A stretch of 46,664 nt of DNA, taken from Pseudomonadota bacterium (GTDB taxonomy: Bacteria; Pseudomonadota; Gammaproteobacteria; Xanthomonadales; Rhodanobacteraceae). Within the stretch, counting starts at the first letter, position 1; each line of letters starts with the position of its first letter. The DNA lies in contig JAKQJM010000019.1 of assembly GCA_029561145.1 (NCBI GenBank), positions 1-46,664 of the forward strand, in the 5' to 3' direction. The notes beneath the pieces were generated by a model. It was not told where the DNA came from. It searched no databases and saw nothing but the letters and a program-made list of their open reading frames with translations. Of this stretch, positions 24,484 to 44,750 are shown piece after piece. Made by a program: the position numbers and the translations under genes.

Positions 24484-27400
24484 CTAGGCGTGTGCCGCTG
24501 CCGGCTCATCCTCGAGGCGTTTGGTCGATTCGCCGTGGTGATCCTGGGCCAGCAGCAGGTAGAACGCAGGGACCACGAACAACGTGAACATCGTGCCGAT
24601 CGCCAGGCCGGTGGTGATGACCAGGCCCATGTTGAAACGTCCGGCTGCACCGGCGCCGGTGGCAATCACGAGCGGCATGACTCCGAGCACCATCGCCGCC
24701 GTGGTCATCAGGATCGGACGCAGGCGTGTCGCCGCAGCTTGTTCGATCGCCTCGCGCTTGGTCTTGCCGGCGCGCTGCAATTCGTTGGCGAACTCGACGA
24801 TCAGGATGCCGTGCTTCGAGATCAGGCCCATCAGGGTGACCAGGCCGACCTGGGTATAGATGTTGAGCGAGGTCGCCCATCGCGTCGAAATCGCACCCAT
24901 GCCGACAAAGCCCGGCAGCAGGTTGATGAAGATCATCGCCCCAAACATCGCCATCGGCACCGAGACGAGGATCACGATCGGGTCGCGCAGGCTGTTGAAC
25001 TGCGCGGCCAGCGCGAGATACACGATGATCACCGCGAACAGCAGGGTCAGGGCGAAACCGCCGGATTCGTTGATGAACTGGCGCGCCTGCCCCGAGTAGT
25101 CGACCTGGTATCCGGCGGGTGCGAGCTCCTTGATCGTGCTCTTGACGAAATCGAGCGCCTCTCCCTGGGTGACACTCGGCACGCCCTGGAACGTCACCGC
25201 GTTGAGCTGCTGGAAGCGCGTCAGGGACTGCGGTACGACCGAGTTCCTGATGCTCGCCACGGTCGAGGCCTGCACGAGGGATCCATCACCGGCGCGGATG
25301 TAGTAATCGAGTACCTGGTCCGGATTGAGGCGATCCTTCTGCAGGACCTGCGGAATGACGCGATACGAGCGGCCGGCGATCGAGAAGTAGTTGACGTAGC
25401 CACCACCGAGCGCGGCGCCGAGCGAAGCGCCGACGTCCTGCTGGGTCAGGCCCAGCGCGGTGATCATGTCGCGATCGACTTCGAGCGTGCTTTGCGGCTT
25501 GTCGATCTTCAGGTTCGTGTCGATGAACCAGAACTTGCCGCTCGACTGCAGTTTGTCCAGCACGTTCTTCGAGACCTCGTAGAGGTTCTCGAACGGCTCG
25601 GTGGTCGACAGCACCACCTCAACCGGCTGTCCCTGCGCACCCGGCAACGACGGGAACTGGAATGCAAAGGCGTTCGTCGCCGCCATCGCGCCCCACTTTA
25701 CCTGCAGCTCGTTCTGGATCTCGGTCGCATTGCGCGAGCGTTCACCCCACGGCACCAGCTTGGCGCCAGTCAGGATCGAGTTCGGCCCGGCGACACCGCT
25801 GATCTGGAAGGTCTGGTGGACCTCGGGAATCGACTTGGTGATCGCCTGCATCTCGGCCATGTAACTCTTCACCTGCGCCGGTGACGCGTTCGGTGCGCCG
25901 GTGGCGATACCGACCACGAACCCCTGGTCTTCCTGCGGGGCCAGCTCCGATTGCGAATTCATGAACAGGAACACGGTGCCGCCGAAGATCATCGCGCCCA
26001 TCACGACCATCACGATCCAGGTCTCGAGGACGCTGTGCAGGCGACGCTCGTAGCCCTTGTGCAGGCGATCGAACTGGCGGTCGATGAACTTGACGAAGCG
26101 GCTGCCCTCGTGATCGTTGCGCAGGAAGCGCGAACACATCATCGGGCTCAAGGTCAGCGCGAGTATCGCCGACACGGTGACCGCTCCGGCCAGGGTGAAT
26201 GCGAACTCGGTGAACAGCGCGCCAGTCAGGCCGCCCTGGAAACCGATCGGGACATACACGGCGATCAGCACGATCGTCATCGCGATGATCGGTCCGGTCA
26301 ATTCACGCGCCGCGATCAAGGCCGCCTGCAACGGCGTCTTGCCTTCCTCGGTGATATGCCGATCGACGTTCTCGACGACGATGATCGCGTCATCGACGAC
26401 CAGGCCGATCGCGAGCACGAGGGCGAGCAGGGTGATCAGGTTGATCGTGTAGCCGAGCATCAGCATCACGAAGAATGCGCCGATCAGCGACAGCGGCATC
26501 GCGATGACCGGGATCATCACGGCGCGGATGCTGCCCATGAACAGGAAGATGACCAGGGTGACGATGACCAGTGCCTCGATCAGGGTCTTGACCACTTCCT
26601 CGATCGAAGTCGTGATGAACTGGGTGGCGTCGTAGGCGATGTTCGCGGTCAGGCCGGTTGGCAGCTGCGCCTGGATATCCGGAAACACGTTGCGCACGCG
26701 CTCGGCGACATCGAGCACATTGGCATCGGGCGAACTCTTGATGCCGACGAAGACCGACTGGTTGCCGTCGAACGCGACAAAGGAGTCATAGTCCTCGGCA
26801 CCGAGCACGACGTTCGCGACGTCCTCGAGGCGAACGATCGCGCCGTCCTTCGATCTGACTGCCAGCCTGCGGAATTCCTCGACCGAGTGCAGGTCGGTCG
26901 CGGCCGTCAGCGCCACGGTGACCGCGTCACCCTTGGTTGCACCGACCGCGGCCAGGTAGTTGTTCGCCGACAGTGCCTGTGAAACATCCGCCGCGGTCAC
27001 GCCCTGGGCCGCCATGCGTACCGGATCGAGCCAGGCACGCAGGGCGAACTGGCGTCCGCCGATGACCTGCGCCTCCTGCACGCCATCGAGCGCGTCGAGT
27101 TGCGGCTTGATCACGCGGATCATGTAGTCGGTGATGTTGTTGGTCGGCAGGCTGTCGCTGTAGAAACCGAGATACATCGATGCGGTGGTCTCGCCGACCT
27201 GCACGGAAACCACCGGTTGTTGTGCCTGCGGCGGCAACTGGTTGGTGACGGCGCTGATCTGGGTCTGGATCTCGGTCAGCGCCCGGTTCGAGTCGTAGTT
27301 GAGCTTGAGCGTTGCCGTGATCGTGGAAACCCCGGTCACGCTCGACGACGACAGGTAGTCGATACCCTGGGCCTGGGCGATCGCCGCTTCGAGCGGCTGC

Positions 27401-27591
27401 GTGATGAAGCCGGCGACCGTCGCCGAATCGGCACCGTAATACGCCGTGCTGACGGTGACGACCGCATTCTCGGTCTTCGGGAACTGACGCACCGTCATGT
27501 CCAGCACCGAGCGCAGCCCGAGCACGAGGATGATCAGGCTGACGACGATCGCCCAGACCGGTTTGTTGACAAAGGAGTCGGTGAATTTCAT
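24484..27591 (-). CDS. RND multidrug efflux pump, inner-membrane subunit (HAE1 family)
   Basis: 1035 residues, full length for AcrB/MexB-like pumps. N-terminal helix VWAIVVSLIILVLGL; two large periplasmic loops; TM4 motif GLVVDDAIIVVEN with the paired aspartates of the proton relay; FQGGLTGALFTEFAFTLAGA before TM6; repeat-half motif GLISKHGILIVEFANELQ. It exports hydrophobic drugs or metabolites using the proton gradient. Last gene of a three-gene operon with outer-membrane factor and adaptor. Specificity cannot be read from sequence; it is closer in feel to MexF/OqxB-like subtypes than to AcrB. Confidence 0.95.
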   Translation of the reverse strand: MKFTDSFVNKPVWAIVVSLIILVLGLRSVLDMTVRQFPKTENAVVTVSTAYYGADSATVAGFITQPLEAAIAQAQGIDYLSSSSVTGVSTITATLKLNYDSNRALTEIQTQISAVTNQLPPQAQQPVVSVQVGETTASMYLGFYSDSLPTNNITDYMIRVIKPQLDALDGVQEAQVIGGRQFALRAWLDPVRMAAQGVTAADVSQALSANNYLAAVGATKGDAVTVALTAATDLHSVEEFRRLAVRSKDGAIVRLEDVANVVLGAEDYDSFVAFDGNQSVFVGIKSSPDANVLDVAERVRNVFPDIQAQLPTGLTANIAYDATQFITTSIEEVVKTLIEALVIVTLVIFLFMGSIRAVMIPVIAMPLSLIGAFFVMLMLGYTINLITLLALVLAIGLVVDDAIIVVENVDRHITEEGKTPLQAALIAARELTGPIIAMTIVLIAVYVPIGFQGGLTGALFTEFAFTLAGAVTVSAILALTLSPMMCSRFLRNDHEGSRFVKFIDRQFDRLHKGYERRLHSVLETWIVMVVMGAMIFGGTVFLFMNSQSELAPQEDQGFVVGIATGAPNASPAQVKSYMAEMQAITKSIPEVHQTFQISGVAGPNSILTGAKLVPWGERSRNATEIQNELQVKWGAMAATNAFAFQFPSLPGAQGQPVEVVLSTTEPFENLYEVSKNVLDKLQSSGKFWFIDTNLKIDKPQSTLEVDRDMITALGLTQQDVGASLGAALGGGYVNYFSIAGRSYRVIPQVLQKDRLNPDQVLDYYIRAGDGSLVQASTVASIRNSVVPQSLTRFQQLNAVTFQGVPSVTQGEALDFVKSTIKELAPAGYQVDYSGQARQFINESGGFALTLLFAVIIVYLALAAQFNSLRDPIVILVSVPMAMFGAMIFINLLPGFVGMGAISTRWATSLNIYTQVGLVTLMGLISKHGILIVEFANELQRAGKTKREAIEQAAATRLRPILMTTAAMVLGVMPLVIATGAGAAGRFNMGLVITTGLAIGTMFTLFVVPAFYLLLAQDHHGESTKRLEDEPAAAHA

Positions 27592-34092: not shown

Positions 34093-34459
34093 TCGACAGC
34101 CGCGATCCTGAGCGGCGGGAGCGGACGATCGGATCGGGAAATCGGAGCGTTCGCCTCACCGCAGCGACCAGGCGTGCCCATCAGCGGATTTCCGGTGCGC
34201 CCACTGACCGGTACTGCGCAGCGGCATGACGCCGCAAACGCGCACCCGCGCGGCCGTACCACGGCGGAGTCTGCGACGTCCCGCGCTGCCGCTTCCGACG
34301 AGCGTGCGGCTGCGTCGCGCAGGCCTCGGTCCTGCTGCGGTCGGCGATGAGGCATGCTTCCTGCATGCGCGATCCGATGCCTCGCGGCATCCGCGTTCAC
34401 GTTCGCAGTGGACGCAGGCGGCGTCTTTCCTTCGAGCATCAACCTGCCCCGGCATCGCA
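34093..34459. other. Gene-poor stretch before the diguanylate cyclase gene
   Basis: 367 bases. The frame of the cyclase stays open here back to an ATG at 34226, but the product would be an Arg/Ala/Pro-rich tail with no ribosome binding site, in front of an intact signal peptide. I see no RNA gene, repeat or strong promoter. Confidence 0.5.
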
Positions 34460-37400
34460 TTGATTCGTCTACTCGCCATCCTTGTCCTGCTCGGCACGAG
34501 CATTCCCGCGCGCCTGCATGCCGCCGATCAGCCGCTGGTGCCACTCGACGTCGCCGACGAAGGCGCGCCGACCTTCAGCGTGTATTCCTCGCGCGAGGGA
34601 TTGTCCGACGAGATCTGGAGCACGCTGGGTTTCGACAGGAACGGTTTTGTCTGGGCCGGGTCGGCGTCGTCGCTGGCCCGATTCGACGGTTACACCTGGA
34701 CGCCCTGGCCGTTTGCCGAGGCACGCAGTCTGGTCCGCGACATGCAGATCGATTCGAGCGGCGTCCTCTGGGCGATCTTCGAGCGTGAAGGCCTGGCCCG
34801 CTACGATGGGATTGCCTGGTCGCTCTATCCCTACCGGAACACATTCCATCAGCGCTTCTCCGATACCACCCGGGTCGACGGCACGAAGGACTACTGGCTG
34901 GGCCTGGACCGCGGCTACCTGCACCTGCAGGGAGGCTCCTGGTTGCCGGATCCCGGCAACGCACCGATCGAGCAGGGCCCGGCTGGCAGCATCGAGCAGA
35001 CCGACAGCCTGTTCGGCGAGCCGCGCCAATGGATGGCGATCAATGGCGGTGGCCTCTGGTATCGCCGCGTCGTCGCGCCGGGCCAACCGGAAGCGTGGCG
35101 GCGCTTCGAGGCGCCCGAGTTCAATGCCCTGCGTACCACGGCGATGCTACGAACGCACGACGCAGGCGCAGAGGAACTCTGGGTGCTCACCTATGGGGAC
35201 GGGCTGCTGCGGATCCGCAACGACGGCATACGCATCTGGCGGGCGGCGCGAGGCGAACTGCCTGCCGAAGCGCTGTACTCGGCCCAGGTGACCTACGCGA
35301 AGGACGGCGAACGTTCGCTCTGGATCGCATCGCGTGCCGGTTTGCTGCGCATGAGTCACGACAGATTGTCGGTCTTCGATCGTCGCCACGGCTTGCCGTC
35401 CGACGCGGTGCGCGGCATCAAGGTACAGCGCGGCATGGACGGCATCGACATACTCTGGCTGGCGACCGAAGGCGGCATCGCGCGTGCCGTGCTTGCCGAC
35501 AGCCCCTGGCAAACCGTGTCCTTGATGGGCGCCCGCGAGAACGGCATTTTCACCGTGATGATCGAACCGGATGGCCACGGCAGCGAGCGCCTGTGGGTCG
35601 GCACGCCCAAGCGGGGACTCGGTCTGCTTGAACGCGGTGAATGGAAGACGTTTTCGCAGGCCAACGGCAAGTTGCCGGCCGAAGGCGTGCGTCAGCTCTG
35701 GCGGCTTGCCGGTCCGGACGGCAAGCCGCAAAGGATCCTGAGCCTTGTCGGTGGCGACCTGTTCCGGATAGACGACGATCTGAATCTCGTGCCGATCGCA
35801 ACGCCTTGGCCGAAACGCGATGAAGAGGTCGCATCGCATGCCTTGGCGCGCACGCAGGACGGACATCTTGAATGGTGGATCTCGTCGCTCTACAGCGGTA
35901 TCCATCGATGGAGGGACGGCAAGTGGACGTCATTCCTGCCGGCTGGCCAAAGCCGGCCCTGGTCGGTAGTCGGCCTGACCGAGCAGATCGATGGCAATGG
36001 CCGTTCATGGTTGTGGGCGGCCAGCGCGACGGGCCTCGCGCGGTTCGACGGGCAGAACTGGGACATGCTGCCGGATGCGCTTGGATTGTCGCCCGACGGA
36101 TTTCGTGGGGTTTCGGTCATCCGCGAGGGCGAGCGCAGCATCCTCTGGGCGAGCAGCAATCGCTCGGGGGTTGTCCGTCTCGATGTGACCGACCCGCAGC
36201 GGCCGAGTCTCGCCGTTGCCGGGCAGGTTCCTGCAGCACCCGATCCGACCGTGTATTCGGTGCTCGCGGACAGTCAGGGGCGCATCTATGTCTGTACCAA
36301 CAATGGCGTGCAGCAACTCACGCCCGGCGCCAACGGCGACTATGCGGAGCGCGTGTTCCGGCGCCGTGACGGTCTCGTCCACGACGAATGCAACACGAAC
36401 GCGCAGCTGATCGATGCGCACGACCGTTACTGGGTCGGCACGCTCGGCGGATTGAGCCTGTACGACCCGCGGCTCGAGACTCCGCCGCGCAAGACCGAGC
36501 CGAAGCCACTCTGGTTCACCGGCATGACCGCCGATGGCTATGCGTTCAACGTCGATGGCGAAGATCCTGTCGAGTTGCCCGCCGGCGCGCGCGACCTGCG
36601 CATCGACTACACGATCATCTCCGGGCTTCGCGAACAGGAGTCGACGTACCGCAGCCAGCTGCACGGCTTCGACACGCAGTTCAGCGCATGGACGAGCGAG
36701 CACGGGCGCCGCTTCAGCGGACTTGCGCCCGGAATCTACGAGCTGCGCGTCGAGGCGCGCGACTATGCGGGAACACCGAGCGCGCCGCGTTCGCTGAAAT
36801 TCTCGATTGCCGCGCACTGGTGGCAGGAGGACCTGGTCAGGGCTGTCGGCGCGTTGTTGCTTGTCACGCTCATCGCGGGCTTCGTGCTGCTCTACAACCG
36901 CGGCCTGCGCACGCGCCAGCGCAACCTCAGGGGCGAGGTTGCGCGACGCACGGCGCAGCTCCAGGCGGCCAACCGGCGCCTGACCGAGTTGTCCTACCAG
37001 GATCCGTTGACCGGCGTCGCCAATCGCCGCCGTCTCATGGAAGTGATCGACGATGCCATTGCCCGCGCGATCAACCGCTCCCTGCCGATCGGGCTGATCG
37101 TGATCGATGTCGATAACTTCAAGGAATACAACGACCAGCACGGGCACCTGGCCGGTGACGCGGCCTTGCGTGCCGTCGCCCAGGCCTTGCAGAGCGTTAC
37201 CCGCGAACAGGATCTGGTCGCGCGTTTCGGCGGCGAGGAGTTCGCCTGCCTGATGATCGACGCCACCATCGACAGCGTGGCCGGCTGCGCCGAGCGCATG
37301 CGCGTCCTGATCGAGGCGCTGCCACCGCGCATGCTCGGCAACAACACGCAGACGATCACGATCAGCGCAGGTGCGATGAGTCGGGTGCCGAAGCCCGGCG

Positions 37401-37516
37401 ACCATGCGGCCGACCTGTTGCGGGATGCCGATGGCGCGTTGTATCGGGCCAAGAACGAAGGCCGCAACCGCGTATGCCGGGTCGCGGCGCGCCCTCAGCT
37501 GTCGCCCGCCGATTGA
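34460..37516 (+). CDS. Propeller-sensor diguanylate cyclase (two-component-propeller repeats, Y_Y_Y domain, GGDEF)
   Basis: 1018 residues if translation begins at the TTG at 34460, which gives a signal peptide (IRLLAILVLLGTSIPARLHA); the only in-frame ATG, at 34226, would add 78 unlikely residues. Periplasmic propeller repeats fill about 30-680 (for example GFVWAGSASSLARFDGYTW, LWLATEGGIARA). A Y_Y_Y domain ends with PGIYELRVEARDYAG. One membrane helix lies at about 798-815, then a short coiled coil and a GGDEF domain with active site GGEEF at about 924-928. REQD five residues before it is an RxxD inhibitory site. It makes cyclic di-GMP in response to an unknown periplasmic signal. Confidence 0.92.
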   Translation: MIRLLAILVLLGTSIPARLHAADQPLVPLDVADEGAPTFSVYSSREGLSDEIWSTLGFDRNGFVWAGSASSLARFDGYTWTPWPFAEARSLVRDMQIDSSGVLWAIFEREGLARYDGIAWSLYPYRNTFHQRFSDTTRVDGTKDYWLGLDRGYLHLQGGSWLPDPGNAPIEQGPAGSIEQTDSLFGEPRQWMAINGGGLWYRRVVAPGQPEAWRRFEAPEFNALRTTAMLRTHDAGAEELWVLTYGDGLLRIRNDGIRIWRAARGELPAEALYSAQVTYAKDGERSLWIASRAGLLRMSHDRLSVFDRRHGLPSDAVRGIKVQRGMDGIDILWLATEGGIARAVLADSPWQTVSLMGARENGIFTVMIEPDGHGSERLWVGTPKRGLGLLERGEWKTFSQANGKLPAEGVRQLWRLAGPDGKPQRILSLVGGDLFRIDDDLNLVPIATPWPKRDEEVASHALARTQDGHLEWWISSLYSGIHRWRDGKWTSFLPAGQSRPWSVVGLTEQIDGNGRSWLWAASATGLARFDGQNWDMLPDALGLSPDGFRGVSVIREGERSILWASSNRSGVVRLDVTDPQRPSLAVAGQVPAAPDPTVYSVLADSQGRIYVCTNNGVQQLTPGANGDYAERVFRRRDGLVHDECNTNAQLIDAHDRYWVGTLGGLSLYDPRLETPPRKTEPKPLWFTGMTADGYAFNVDGEDPVELPAGARDLRIDYTIISGLREQESTYRSQLHGFDTQFSAWTSEHGRRFSGLAPGIYELRVEARDYAGTPSAPRSLKFSIAAHWWQEDLVRAVGALLLVTLIAGFVLLYNRGLRTRQRNLRGEVARRTAQLQAANRRLTELSYQDPLTGVANRRRLMEVIDDAIARAINRSLPIGLIVIDVDNFKEYNDQHGHLAGDAALRAVAQALQSVTREQDLVARFGGEEFACLMIDATIDSVAGCAERMRVLIEALPPRMLGNNTQTITISAGAMSRVPKPGDHAADLLRDADGALYRAKNEGRNRVCRVAARPQLSPAD

Positions 37517-38978: not shown

Positions 38979-40607
38979 TCAGGCTTTCGCCTGCGCGCGC
39001 AGCAGGGCAAGCAGTTGCTCGATCGGCAGCGCCTTGTGGAACAACCACCCCTGGGCGAACTGTACGCCATGATCGCGCAGGAAGGCCGCCTGCACTTCGG
39101 TCTCGACGCCTTCGCCGATGACCTTCAAGCCGAGCGATTCGGCGATGCGGATGATGTGCAGTGCGACTTCGCTGGTCGCGGAATCGGTACCGACGGTCTC
39201 GACGAAGACCTTGTCGATCTTCAGGTAGTCGGTTTGCAGCGAGGTCAGGTAGGGCAGGCTCGAATAGCCCGTGCCGAAATCGTCGATCGCGACACGAACA
39301 CCCAGTTCGCGGATCGCGGTAACGATGCGCCTGGCCAGGACCGGATCGAGGAACGAGTGCTCGGTCGCCTCGACGACAAGGTTCGCCGGAGCGATTCCAT
39401 TCGTCTGCAGCAAGCGGCGCAGCGATTCCACGATCGTCCCGGAATGCAGGTCCGACGAGGCCAGGTTCACGCTGACATAGCAGTCGGGCCGGATCTTCAA
39501 CAGGTGCGGCGCATCGAGCGCGACCCGTGCGAGCACGTACTCGGTGAACTGCCGGACCAGGCCGTAGTCCTCGGCCGCCGGGATGAACACATCAGGACGC
39601 AGGGTTTCGCCCTCACGGCGCGGCCAGCGCAACAGGGCCTCGACACCGACGATTCGCCGCGTTGCCAGTTCGAGGATGGGCTGGTAGTGCAGCTCGAATT
39701 CCGAGCGCTTCAGCGCCAGTCGCAATTCGGTTCGCAGGGATGAACGCTGTTGCGCCAGCTTGACCACGCCGAACGAAAGACCGGCGCCGAGCACGAGTGC
39801 GATCGGCACCAGCAGAAACGCGACCCGGTACAGGCGCGACCGCAGATAGTCTGCCGGTACCGCGACATAGGCCGCGGTGTCGAATCGTGTCGAGGCGCGC
39901 AGGCTGACGAGATAGCGGCCATCGAAGAAGCGGGCTTGTTCGGCGTCGCCGAGATGTTTCATCCAGCGTGAATCGAAATAGCCGCGACTGCTCAGGAGCC
40001 TTGCGCCGCTGCGCCCGTAGGCGCCCAGGGCGATGTCTTCGCGGTCGACGAAGATGTCGATCAGGGATTCGGGATGCATCGCGGTGACGATGTCGTCCTT
40101 CTGCAGCGTCAGGAAACGATGGCCATCGCCGATGCCGAGATCGACCGAGCGGCGAATTCCCGCGCCGAGCGCGCTGACCCATTCGACCGGCCCGAGCGCA
40201 ATCGGCGGATCGTGTCGACCGAGCGATGAGCAGGTCAGGCGTCCGTCGGTGACCGAGCCAAGCAACTGCAGGTAGCTGGAGGCCATGTTTATATCGCGCA
40301 TGAGGGCGATGCGCTGATCCGAACACGGGTCGGAATACGGTGCGCCGCGCAGGCGCTCGTACGCTGCTCTTGCCTGGTCGCCGGCGGCGTCCGTGCGACG
40401 CAGCACTTCGACGACCATCGTGTCGGCAAGGCGCATCTCGGCCTCCATGCTCTGGCTGTGCGCGAGATACAGGGCAGCAAGCAGCGGAACGGCGATCCCG
40501 AGGATGCCTATCGCGACGACGAGCTTTGCCGTTAGCTTCTTGCGCATGCCCCATCGGCCGAACGGCCGCAATGCACTACCCCGTTCCGGATCATGCGCCT
40601 TCGCCAT
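38979..40607 (-). CDS. Membrane cyclic di-GMP phosphodiesterase, CSS-motif plus EAL
   Basis: 542 residues. Helices at about 28-50 and 259-281 enclose a periplasmic domain with C95 and C126-S-S, the spacing of the redox-sensing CSS domain of PdeC/PdeB-type enzymes. The EAL domain is complete: VGVEALLRWP, the stretch with NLASSDL, VEATEHSF, DDFGTGYSSLPYL, LKIDKVFV and GEGVETEVQ. It should cleave cyclic di-GMP, with activity controlled by the disulfide state of the periplasmic domain. Start ATG at 40607; a methionine 20 residues on is possible. It follows nrdB by 52 bases on the same strand, so part of its expression may come from the nrd promoter. Confidence 0.93.
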   Translation of the reverse strand: MAKAHDPERGSALRPFGRWGMRKKLTAKLVVAIGILGIAVPLLAALYLAHSQSMEAEMRLADTMVVEVLRRTDAAGDQARAAYERLRGAPYSDPCSDQRIALMRDINMASSYLQLLGSVTDGRLTCSSLGRHDPPIALGPVEWVSALGAGIRRSVDLGIGDGHRFLTLQKDDIVTAMHPESLIDIFVDREDIALGAYGRSGARLLSSRGYFDSRWMKHLGDAEQARFFDGRYLVSLRASTRFDTAAYVAVPADYLRSRLYRVAFLLVPIALVLGAGLSFGVVKLAQQRSSLRTELRLALKRSEFELHYQPILELATRRIVGVEALLRWPRREGETLRPDVFIPAAEDYGLVRQFTEYVLARVALDAPHLLKIRPDCYVSVNLASSDLHSGTIVESLRRLLQTNGIAPANLVVEATEHSFLDPVLARRIVTAIRELGVRVAIDDFGTGYSSLPYLTSLQTDYLKIDKVFVETVGTDSATSEVALHIIRIAESLGLKVIGEGVETEVQAAFLRDHGVQFAQGWLFHKALPIEQLLALLRAQAKA

Positions 40608-40659
40608 GATTTGCGCATCGACCGTCCGGATGTTCGGCGGGCGGCCCGCTACGGGTCGC

Positions 40660-41688
40660 TCAGAACGCTTCGTCGAAGCCGACCTCGCCCTGCACGCCGA
40701 CCTGGTAAGCGGACACGCGTCGCTCGAAGAAGTTGGTGACTTCCTGCACGTCCTGCAACTGCATGAAGTCGAACGGGTTGCGCGCGCCGTAGTGGCGCGG
40801 CATGCCGAGTTGGGCGAAACGCTGGTCGGCGCAGTACTCGAGGTACTGGCGCATCGCCTTCGGCGAGATGCCCGCGACGCCGCCACCGAGCACGTCGTCG
40901 GCGAACGCCGTCTCGCACTGGATCGCTTCCTCAAGCATGTCGACGACCTGAGCCTGCATCCCGGCATCGAACAGGTCGGGCTCCTCCTCGCGCACGGTAC
41001 GGATCGTCTCGAATGCGAATGCCATGTGGCAGCTCTCGTCGCGGAACACCCAGTTGGTACCCGAGGCGAGCCCGTGCAGCAGTCCGCGCGAACGCAGGAA
41101 GTACACGTAGGCGAATGCGGCAAAGAAGAACAATCCCTCGATGCAGGCGGCGAAGCAGATCAGGTTGAGCAGGAACTGGCGACGCTCGTCGCGCGTGCCG
41201 ATGCGCCTGACCTGCTGGAGCGAATCGATCCACTTGAAGCAGAACTCGGCCTTGCGCCGGATCGACGGGATGTTCTCGATCGCGGCGAACGCCTTGTTGC
41301 GCTCGTCCGGATCAGGCAGGTAGGCATCGAGCAGGGTCAGATAGAACTGCACATGCAGCGCTTCTTCATAAAGCTGGCGCGAAAGGTACATGCGTGCTTC
41401 GGGCGCGTTGATGTGCGCGTAGAGGTTCAGCACGAGATTGTTCGACACGATCGAATCGCCGGTCGCGAAGAACGCGATCAGGCGATGGATCAGGTGCCGC
41501 TCGGCCGGCGTCATCTTCGACTTCAGGTCGTTGACGTCCGGCGCGAAATCGACTTCCTCGACGGTCCAGGTATTGCGGATCGCCGCGCGGTACATCTCGT
41601 AGAACGCGGGATAGCGCATCGGCCGCAAGGTCAGTGCGAAACCGGGATCGAGCAGGAGTTGCTTCTTGAACGGAGGTTGTGCGGACAT
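40660..41688 (-). CDS. nrdB: Ribonucleotide reductase class Ia, beta (radical-bearing) subunit
   Basis: 342 residues. Iron ligands: D78 in ATGDSIV, E109 and H112 in YEEALHVQFY, and the second set in AACIEGLFFF and FRDESCHMAF. Y116, four residues after H112, is the radical tyrosine, so this is a tyrosyl-radical enzyme and not the Phe-containing class Ic. The C-terminal end GEVGFDEAF is the peptide that docks on the alpha subunit. It makes deoxynucleotides with NrdA under oxic conditions. The gap to nrdA is 89 bases on the same strand. Confidence 0.96.
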   Translation of the reverse strand: MSAQPPFKKQLLLDPGFALTLRPMRYPAFYEMYRAAIRNTWTVEEVDFAPDVNDLKSKMTPAERHLIHRLIAFFATGDSIVSNNLVLNLYAHINAPEARMYLSRQLYEEALHVQFYLTLLDAYLPDPDERNKAFAAIENIPSIRRKAEFCFKWIDSLQQVRRIGTRDERRQFLLNLICFAACIEGLFFFAAFAYVYFLRSRGLLHGLASGTNWVFRDESCHMAFAFETIRTVREEEPDLFDAGMQAQVVDMLEEAIQCETAFADDVLGGGVAGISPKAMRQYLEYCADQRFAQLGMPRHYGARNPFDFMQLQDVQEVTNFFERRVSAYQVGVQGEVGFDEAF

Positions 41689-41777: not shown

Positions 41778-44306
41778 CTACTGGCAGGCCTCGCAGTACG
41801 CGGGATTTTCAAGCGAGCAGACCACGGCGCTGCTGGCGTCCGCCGCGGAGGTCACGACGGCCGCAGGCAGTTCCGTCGCGCCTGCTCCGATCGTGGTTTT
41901 TGCAATGCGTGTCGCTGGGCGCGAGCGCAGGTAGTAGGTGGTCTTGATGCCCGCTTTCCACGCATACATGTACATCGACGACAGGCGCCCGATGTTCGGG
42001 TTTTCCTGGAACAGGTTGAGCGACTGGCTCTGGTCGATGTAGGCGCCGCGCGCGGCGGCGTGGTCGATCAGTGCCTTCTGCGGCAGCTCCCATACGGTGC
42101 GATAGATCGCGCGAAGACGTTCCGGTATCGCCTCGATGCCCTGGATCGAACCTTCCGCGAGCGTGATCGCGTCACGCACGCTCTCGGTCCACAAGCCCAG
42201 GGTCTTCAGTTCCTCGACGAGATAGCGGTTGATGACGAGGAAGTCGCCCGACAAGGTCTCACGCTTGAACAAGTTCGACACCTGCGGCTCGATGCATTCG
42301 TAGCAGCCGGCGATCGAGGCGATCGTCGCGGTCGGCGCGATCGCGATCAACAGTGAATTGCGCAGGCCCGTCGCCTTGATGCGCGCGCGCAATTCGTCCC
42401 AACGCGCGGCCGGGATCGATTGCCTCGACTGCGGCCAATGGTCGAACTGCAGCTCGCCACGGGCGGCGCGCGTCTCGGCGAAACCCGGATGTGCGCCGAG
42501 CGCATCGGCGAGGTCGCAGGACTGGTTCAGCGCATGGAAATAGATGTGTTCGGCGATGCTCGCCGACAGCGCTTCGGCTTCCTTCGAGTCGAACGCCAGG
42601 CGCAACTGGAAGAACACATCCTGCAGGCCCATTACGCCGAGGCCGACGGGACGCCATTTGCGATTCGCCGTCGCTGCCGTTTCGATCGGATAGAAATTGA
42701 GATCGATGACGCGATCGAGCTGGCGCACGGCGATCGCGACCGTATGCGCGAGCTTGTCGAAATCGAACGCGCCGTCGCTGACATGCCGCGACAGGTTGAT
42801 CGAGCCGAGGTTGCACACCGCGGTTTCCGTGGCCGAGGTGACCTCGAGGATTTCGGTGCACAGATTGGAAAGGTGAATCACATTGTCCGCGCGTGCGGTC
42901 TGGTTCGAGGTCGCATTGCAGCGATCCTTGAAAGTCATCCAGCCATTGCCGGTTTGTGCCAGCGTGCGCAGCATGCGCGAATACAGCTCGCGCGCCTTGA
43001 TCGTGCCGGAAGCCATGCCGGCGGCTTCGGCGTGCAGGTATTCGCGATCGAAGTCCTCGCCCCAGAGATCGACCAGTTGCGGTACGCGTTTCGGATCGAA
43101 CAGCGACCAGTCGCGATCGGATTCGACGCGGCGCATGAATTCATCGGGAATCCAGTTGGCCAGGTTGAGATTGTGGGTGCGCCGCGCATCGTCGCCGGTG
43201 TTGTCGCGCAGTTCGAGGAACTCCTCGATATCGGCATGCCAGGTTTCGAGATACACGCAGGCCGCGCCCTTGCGCTTGCCGCCCTGGTTGACCGCCGCGA
43301 CCGATGCATCGAGCGTCTTCAGCCACGGCACGAGGCCGTTCGAATGACCGTTGGTGCCCTTGATCAGCGAGCCGCGCGAACGCACGCGCGAATACGAGAG
43401 GCCGATGCCGCCGGCGAACTTGCTGAGCTTGGCGACATCCGCGTACTTGCTGTAGATGCTTTCGAGCGAATCGAGCGGCGAATCGAGCAGGAAGCACGAG
43501 GACAACTGTTCGTGCGCGGTGCCGGAATTGAACAGGGACGGTGAACTCGGCACGTACTCGAGCGACGACAGCAGTCGATACAGCTCGAGCGTCTCGGCGA
43601 GGTTGCCCCCGCCCAGCGCGCAGGCCACGCGCATGAAGAAATACTGCGGCGTCTCGGTCACCTTGCGCAGGTCGGGATGGCGCAGCAGGTAGCGGTCGTA
43701 GACCGTGCGCAGGCCGAAGTACTCGAAGCGTCGCGAGGCGGGCGGATCGATCGTGTCGTTGAGCTTGCGTGCGTTGAGCGCGACGAAATCGCGCAGGCGG
43801 TCATTGATCAGGCCGAGTTCGGCGCCGCGTGCGACCGATTGCGAAAACGACTGGATCTCCTGTCCCGCCACCTCCTTGTCGATGTAGGAAGACAGCAGGC
43901 GTGCGGCGAGAAGGCCGTACTCGGGTTCCTCGGCGGTCAGTGCGGCCGCGGTGCGGATCGAGAGCTCGTCGAGTTCGCGCGTGGTTGCGCCGTCGTAGAT
44001 GCCGCCGATGGTCTTCAATGCGACGCGCATCGGATCGACTGCATGCAGGCCGCCGGCGCTGCGCGTGACTGCACGCACGATCTTGCCGAGGTCGACGACC
44101 TCGCTGCCGCCATTGCGCTTGGTCACGCGCATCTGGGTCGGGCTGTGCGGTGCGGTCAGGGCAAAGTCTTCGGCGCTGGTTGACGCAACGACCGATCGAG
44201 CGGTCGCCTGGATGGCGACAAGGGATGGGGAATTCATGGTGTCTTGGCGAAAGGAGGGTGGGTCGGATTCGTGCGCGCGTGGCGCGCTGGAATCGAGAGG
44301 ATGCAT
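41778..44306 (-). CDS. nrdA: Ribonucleotide reductase class Ia, alpha (catalytic) subunit
   Basis: 842 residues from the ATG at 44306, supported by GGGAG 6 bases upstream; the ATG at 44237 lacks a site. An ATP cone at about 58-145 provides allosteric control. Active site: C271 in SSCFLLD and C498 form the redox pair, C483 in NLCTE is the thiyl radical cysteine with N481 and E485. The tyrosine pair for radical transfer is in KTTYYLRSR, and the C-terminal CEAC tail reduces the active site. An unusually long leader carries a cobalamin riboswitch and NrdR-like sites. Confidence 0.96.
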   Translation of the reverse strand: MHPLDSSAPRAHESDPPSFRQDTMNSPSLVAIQATARSVVASTSAEDFALTAPHSPTQMRVTKRNGGSEVVDLGKIVRAVTRSAGGLHAVDPMRVALKTIGGIYDGATTRELDELSIRTAAALTAEEPEYGLLAARLLSSYIDKEVAGQEIQSFSQSVARGAELGLINDRLRDFVALNARKLNDTIDPPASRRFEYFGLRTVYDRYLLRHPDLRKVTETPQYFFMRVACALGGGNLAETLELYRLLSSLEYVPSSPSLFNSGTAHEQLSSCFLLDSPLDSLESIYSKYADVAKLSKFAGGIGLSYSRVRSRGSLIKGTNGHSNGLVPWLKTLDASVAAVNQGGKRKGAACVYLETWHADIEEFLELRDNTGDDARRTHNLNLANWIPDEFMRRVESDRDWSLFDPKRVPQLVDLWGEDFDREYLHAEAAGMASGTIKARELYSRMLRTLAQTGNGWMTFKDRCNATSNQTARADNVIHLSNLCTEILEVTSATETAVCNLGSINLSRHVSDGAFDFDKLAHTVAIAVRQLDRVIDLNFYPIETAATANRKWRPVGLGVMGLQDVFFQLRLAFDSKEAEALSASIAEHIYFHALNQSCDLADALGAHPGFAETRAARGELQFDHWPQSRQSIPAARWDELRARIKATGLRNSLLIAIAPTATIASIAGCYECIEPQVSNLFKRETLSGDFLVINRYLVEELKTLGLWTESVRDAITLAEGSIQGIEAIPERLRAIYRTVWELPQKALIDHAAARGAYIDQSQSLNLFQENPNIGRLSSMYMYAWKAGIKTTYYLRSRPATRIAKTTIGAGATELPAAVVTSAADASSAVVCSLENPAYCEACQ

Positions 44307-44501
44307 GGCGGTCTCCCGTGCGTTACCGATGGCCTGCTCCCGAGCGCAGGATTGATCGGTGCCGGTTCACGGAGTGCGCCGCCGGATCCACGCAGTGGCG
44401 TCGATCCTGCAACGCGCTTCCCCGCGGAAGCGGCCACCTGCACTGGATCTGCGACGTTCGGCGGTCGCCGTCTCAGCGGACGAGACCGACGGGCCGCAGG
44501 C

Positions 44502-44702
44502 CCGGTGTGTCGGCAGGTTTTCGGGCTCGCGGACACGGATCTTGCGATCCACCTTGCCCCACGGCTTCCCAGGCTTGCGCCCAGTGCACGGGATGGGGCT
44601 CGTTTCCACTTACCGCTGCGGGGCAGCTCCGGATTTGCACCGGATTCCCTTTTAACCCGGCCTCGTCCGACGCGGGACGTCATCGAAGCGGGCACCGACC
44701 GG
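44502..44702 (-). promoter_or_regulatory. Cobalamin (adenosylcobalamin) riboswitch in the nrdAB leader
   Basis: Read on the minus strand the consensus parts appear in order: GGGAATCCGGTGCAAATCC, then GAGCTGCCCCGCAGCGGTAA, then GCCTGGGAAGCCGTGGGG, then the B12 box GCGAGCCCGAAAACCTGCCG (44511-44530). The ends CCGGT (44698-44702) and ACCGG (44502-44506) can close the outer stem P1. A hairpin CGGGCC-TGC-GGCCCG (44490-44504) shares bases with the 3' side of P1 and could compete with it. It precedes nrdA by about 195 bases. Cobalamin should lower nrdAB expression. Confidence 0.95.
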
Positions 44703-44718
44703 ACACAAGCTATTGTGT
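44703..44718 (-). promoter_or_regulatory. NrdR box, proximal
   Basis: ACACAATAGCTTGTGT, a perfect inverted repeat (ACACAA/TTGTGT) that matches the 16-base NrdR box pattern. It lies just upstream of the riboswitch, over the expected -10 region of the nrdA promoter (-35 TTGACG at 44730-44735). Confidence 0.8.
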
Positions 44719-44734
44719 CGGGCGGGTCGCGTCA

Positions 44735-44750
44735 ACGGATTATTTTGTGC
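44735..44750 (-). promoter_or_regulatory. NrdR box, distal (degenerate)
   Basis: GCACAAAATAATCCGT keeps one half of the NrdR pattern. Its start is 32 bases from the start of the proximal box, three helical turns, the spacing typical of paired NrdR boxes. It abuts the candidate -35. Confidence 0.55.

Follow-up and report, generated by a model that had tools for sequence, protein, structure and literature searches.

B12 elements have long been the subject of comparative work. A precedent for B12 control of a ribonucleotide reductase (RNR) that does without B12 is the nrdABS operon of Streptomyces coelicolor, which carries a cobalamin riboswitch (Borovok et al. 2006, as related in PMC4991794). 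On that account, the locus described here shares with it a cobalamin riboswitch upstream of nrdAB; S. coelicolor has a class Ia enzyme, with the class II gene nrdJ in its genome. It is, however, an actinobacterium whose operon includes nrdS, whereas our assembly shows no nrdJ and B12 control is what we propose here. In Propionibacterium acnes, as far as PMC3848588 describes it, the nrdAB leader combines a cobalamin riboswitch with an NrdR box, and nrdJ lies elsewhere. The present locus has the same plan, a riboswitch in the leader plus an NrdR site on the promoter, but two NrdR-type boxes in place of one; in P. acnes, much transcription seems to stop short of the first gene. A similar relationship, that between the B12-free isozyme and a B12-using enzyme, has been described for another enzyme pair, with metE riboswitches in genomes that have metH allowing B12 to repress the B12-free isozyme (per PMC9600662). 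The nrdAB riboswitch looks like a new example of this known strategy, in which a backup enzyme is shut off when the B12-using enzyme works. The papers that our literature searches listed, with most subscription papers beyond reach, included no report of B12 control of nrdAB in the Lysobacterales that we saw.

The window, i.e., the whole 46,664-nt stretch of DNA that was analysed, is an entire contig (C93) of a 3.6-Mb genome (G000) assembled in 149 contigs. At gathering thresholds, cmscan finds a sole Rfam match in it, RF00174 (Cobalamin), at 44495..44714 on the minus strand; the match spans model positions 1-189, i.e., the full aptamer, and scores 105.4 bits (E 1.7e-25) against a gathering score of 31.5 bits, with the L5 loop core CCCCG at 44619..44623 (-). 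The earlier note had placed a riboswitch at 44502-44702 on the nrdAB strand and proposed a search with the Rfam cobalamin model; its interval falls inside the match, and its coordinates and strand were right. The only other Rfam family to surface in the leader was ncS037, at chance level (17.1 bits versus 112). A cobalamin riboswitch before nrdAB is thereby confirmed as real.

The aptamer ends 188 nt before nrdA (41778..44306, -), which encodes an 842-aa class I large subunit (731.6 bits to TIGR02506, cut-off 341.05) with an ATP-cone and both RNR large-chain domains; its ATG lies at 44306, 6 nt 3' of a Shine-Dalgarno-like GGGAG (44313..44317, -) read from the sequence. Behind it lies nrdB (40660..41688, -), encoding a 342-aa small subunit (274 bits to PF00268). 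In a phmmer alignment, NrdB Tyr116 pairs with residue 183 of yeast Rnr2, which we take to be the radical tyrosine, and NrdB would accordingly belong with the tyrosyl-radical subclasses. These domains bear out the existence of a B12-independent reductase downstream of the riboswitch at the level of class I; the subclass "Ia" is the earlier note's label. The closest named relatives of NrdA come from UWPOB_RHODAN1 (84%), a Rhodanobacter (83%) and other Rhodanobacteraceae such as Dyella. Elsewhere in the window, a frame for a CSS-motif/EAL protein (38979-41123, -) overlaps the end of nrdB; 34226-37516 (+) encodes a GGDEF protein that also matches a regulator propeller, and 24484-27591 (-) an AcrB-type transporter.

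Upstream of nrdA, two NrdR-type boxes flank and overlap a promoter-like motif, an addition to the earlier note, which did not mention them. Box 1 (GCACAAAATAATCCGT, 44735..44750, -) lies upstream of box 2 (ACACAATAGCTTGTGT, 44703..44718, -), with a start-to-start distance of 32 bp and a spacer of 16 bp; scored against an assumed consensus, box 2 matches at 14/16 positions and the pair at 25/32. A box pattern composed after the site had been seen gave two matches, which are one site on both strands, against 0.09 expected. The promoter-like motif, identified by reading and pattern matching, comprises a -35-like TTGACG (44730..44735, -) 17 nt before a -10-like TAGCTT (44707..44712, -) that overlaps box 2; a stricter scan of the leader returned no promoter, the TTGACG included. 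Transcription probably starts near 44700, in which case the first bases of the aptamer overlap the promoter. In what PMC12051234 reports, paired NrdR boxes obey a 15-16 bp spacer rule with 16 bp common, the spacer seen here; with two boxes so spaced on a promoter-like motif, nrdAB has the layout predicted for an NrdR-regulated promoter. The arrangement recurs: of 57 nrdA leaders, 53 had a pair score above the shuffle maximum (19; 1200 mononucleotide shuffles), with the other four at 12, 13, 15 and 19, and a TTGACn, 16-18 nt, TAnnnT motif occurs in all but L059, L079, L083 and L086 (53/57), although the leaders are related and neither count represents independent cases. Three riboswitch leaders without nrdA, two before btuB-like genes and one before a methylmalonate-semialdehyde dehydrogenase gene, score low for the pair.

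The riboswitch itself is widespread. A class I NrdA that matches strongly (557 bits or more) turns up in at least 91 of 117 family genomes (the remaining 26 may include NrdA fragments), and in at least 72 of these 91 a riboswitch lies upstream on the same strand. An nhmmer survey of 80 named nrdA loci found the riboswitch in 52, too little upstream DNA in 7 and none in 21, hence in 52 of 73 testable loci; 12 of 12 weaker positives were confirmed by Rfam, while an Rfam search of the 21 riboswitch-less loci and of three of the seven with short upstream DNA gave no riboswitch. Some of the 52 lie beyond the order (their labels read Myxococcales, Acidobacteria and others). The 21, which comprise L043-L045, L048-L053, L058 and others, take in the Stenotrophomonas maltophilia group. 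These counts suggest that B12 control of a B12-free reductase is common in the family, with NrdR-type boxes on the same promoter. NrdJ, in turn, is found in 115 of the 117 genomes, in some of them in pieces, as against 91 with a strong class I NrdA, which suggests that NrdJ is the near-universal and NrdAB the optional enzyme. The 26 genomes in which NrdJ is found but class I NrdA gives no strong match (fragments may be present in a few) may depend on B12 for their DNA precursors. By our reading of the matches, 20 of the 117 genomes show the split-match pattern of G059, near NrdJ residue 355 within a frame of more than 1100 aa; in G059, NrdJ (L121:4792-8178, -) contains an intein-like insert with LAGLIDADG_3 (83.2 bits) and Intein_splicing (31.0 bits, below the 35.8 cut-off) matches.

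The aptamer, the order of the genes, the pair of boxes, the complementarity of L5 and L13 (below) and the conservation in relatives are observed. Building on them, we posit that the leader of this class I nrdAB operon is under two controls, by NrdR and by a B12 switch that turns a backup enzyme OFF, a reading that we hold with considerable confidence. NrdR would bind the two promoter boxes and repress transcription when deoxynucleotides are plentiful. Once a leader is being made, its riboswitch would bind a ligand, plausibly adenosylcobalamin, and the bound form would close a kissing loop between L5 and L13, turning nrdAB off. With B12 present, the B12-dependent NrdJ would make deoxynucleotides; without it, nrdAB would be on. 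The OFF direction and the backup role are the best reading because NrdJ is near-universal in the family while a strong class I NrdA is not; the partner is assumed, since neither nrdJ nor nrdD is in the assembly, and we presume that this organism's nrdJ lies in a part that the assembly is missing. Further support comes from the btuB-like and metH genes described below; the 21 of 73 testable nrdA loci without a riboswitch weigh against this reading, as does the failure to find a CobO/BtuR-type adenosyltransferase in the genus (below).

The output step would be either a translation block or Rho-dependent termination. A P13/L13-type hairpin, CGCTT-CCGCGGGG-AAGCG (44415..44432, -), sits 79-97 nt 3' of the B12 box, and its loop CCGCGGGG is complementary to the L5 core CCCCG, as a predicted L5/L13 kissing loop requires. 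Of the 29 leaders in the nearer set, 27 have the loop CCGCGGGGA. By our script rule, an L13-type hairpin occurs in 38 of 57 nrdA leaders and in none of the three others, but also in 871 of 2800 shuffles (31%), so that single cases prove little and the evidence lies in conserved place and sequence, not in mere presence. Because both loops barely vary, no covariation supports their contact; across 22 leaders the stem shows one-sided variation at five pairs and two-sided variation once. Long-range masking of the start codon, by which the riboswitch would chiefly affect translation or Rho-dependent termination, is possible but on balance doubtful. A search of the nrdAB strand for an intrinsic terminator came up empty, in keeping with such a mode, and in the minimum-energy fold the 5' flank of P13 pairs with the ATG region; this masking was, however, unsupported by a swap test, in which native flank/start pairs from 26 leaders (-13.2 kcal/mol) hardly differed from swapped ones (-12.8 kcal/mol; permutation p 0.18). 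A second conserved hairpin lies near the start codon (44325..44360, -; inner stem and loop 44333-44350, outer helix ACCGAT/ATCGGT). Its inner stem shows two-sided changes at two pairs (3 sequences), and its outer helix is present in 21 of 25 leaders versus 35% of shuffles. We rejected it as a second kissing partner for L5 because the GCGGG complement is lost in the window, L038, L095 and the Luteibacter leaders. The loop of this hairpin, just 5' of the nrdA start, is GGGA; as a guess, its GGA might mark the binding site of a protein such as RsmA.

The OFF-switch reading makes the whereabouts of nrdJ critical. The earlier note held that the switch makes sense only with an nrdJ in the genome and took a genome without one as a refutation. 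Here the outcome is mixed: taken literally, the assembly lacks the gene, as PF02867, TIGR02504 and the NrdJ protein of a relative, G004 (594.6 bits to TIGR02504, cut-off 399.95), match only the window's NrdA in it, while 115 of the 117 family genomes yield NrdJ and a contig stops at the gene that would adjoin nrdJ. Within the genus, the G004 query finds NrdJ in 8 of 10 genomes (in two pieces in G099 and G059), and in all eight a HtrA/DegQ-like (degQ-like) gene is divergent to it. The exceptions in the genus, which are also the two in the family, are our genome and a relative, G110, where the query gives only a 29-30% match to NrdA. In our genome the degQ-like gene is cut by the end of a 3949-base contig (C137), and in G110 a 3851-base contig (C187) ends at or near the start of this gene; on the map of G030, the breaks fall 956 nt and about 320 nt, respectively, short of nrdJ homology. 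A gene cut at a contig end means that DNA is missing exactly there, unless the gene is naturally truncated. By our own arithmetic (298 contig ends, 3.6 Mb), about 8% of points would by chance have a contig end less than 1 kb away on a chosen side, so the two breaks together favour a gap, with the caveat that contig ends are not random. A match on C105 that we considered as the cut degQ-like gene proved to be a HtrA-like paralogue lying within a contig of 169 kb. Across nrdJ from the degQ-like gene, the adjacent 355-aa protein of G030 matches G110 at 82% and our genome at only 45%, which is uninformative; the G110 stretch around the 82% match holds no TSCPD or nrdJ match.

A true loss of nrdJ in the lineage of our genome and G110 would leave a riboswitch on the only RNR, as a relic, a partly acting element or an ON switch. 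Neither assembly shows nrdJ, nrdD (PF13597; absent from all 10 genus genomes, ours included) or TSCPD, the companion gene of nrdJ elsewhere in the genus, although the missing TSCPD gene fits gap and loss alike; our genome is scored 99.42% complete, and no NrdA found is closer to ours than that of G110 (84%), so that one loss could explain both cases. We nevertheless judge such a loss unlikely: a true deletion would not explain why both contigs break off at the degQ-like gene, on the side towards nrdJ, all 115 other family genomes have NrdJ, and the two aptamers (105.4 and 104.4 bits) score like others, with no sign of decay. Quite improbable, too, is the specific case in which NrdJ is gone from this lineage while an intact B12 riboswitch persists on its sole RNR; if true, B12 would limit, or with a reversed switch promote, all DNA precursor synthesis. 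An assembly gap at nrdJ is likelier than its loss, with neither proven, and we do not count the missing nrdJ against the OFF switch, given the contig that stops in the degQ-like gene, the like situation in the relative and the presence of NrdJ in 115 of 117 genomes; an assembly gap could pass for a regulatory design that looks lethal. That the aptamer is non-functional and nrdAB answers to NrdR alone is very improbable, given that the aptamer matches the whole model with a score well beyond the gathering threshold and that relatives share the leader plan.

Other B12-related parts are present in the genome. The earlier note had suggested looking for B12 uptake genes, and a btuB-like receptor gene behind a riboswitch of its own was found; TIGR01779 is its best match (443.6 bits, below the cut-off of 599.7). 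This riboswitch (C141:59715-59925, 111.3 bits) was the one match besides the nrdA aptamer in a genome search with RF00174 (E up to 0.001; 150 of 175 candidates scored). It belongs to the same Rfam family but has CCCCCG in L5 where the nrdA riboswitch has CCCCG, and neither an NrdR-type pair nor an L13-type hairpin came up in its leader with the scripts used for nrdA. All 10 genus genomes, ours included, have the B12-dependent methionine synthase MetH (PF02965), and in none of the 10 was a CobO/BtuR-type adenosyltransferase (PF02572) found. In G004, a cobalamin riboswitch (L099:4437-4615, +; G004:C1:1204421-1204627) lies just 5' of a gene for methylmalonate-semialdehyde dehydrogenase (TIGR01722, 727.2 bits), with an acyl-CoA dehydrogenase-like gene also downstream, and could possibly place a valine or propionate route under B12 control. 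A further G004 riboswitch match (L095:4049-4244, +; G004:C1:534035-534251) lies on the opposite strand, about 6.6 kb from the nrdA riboswitch.
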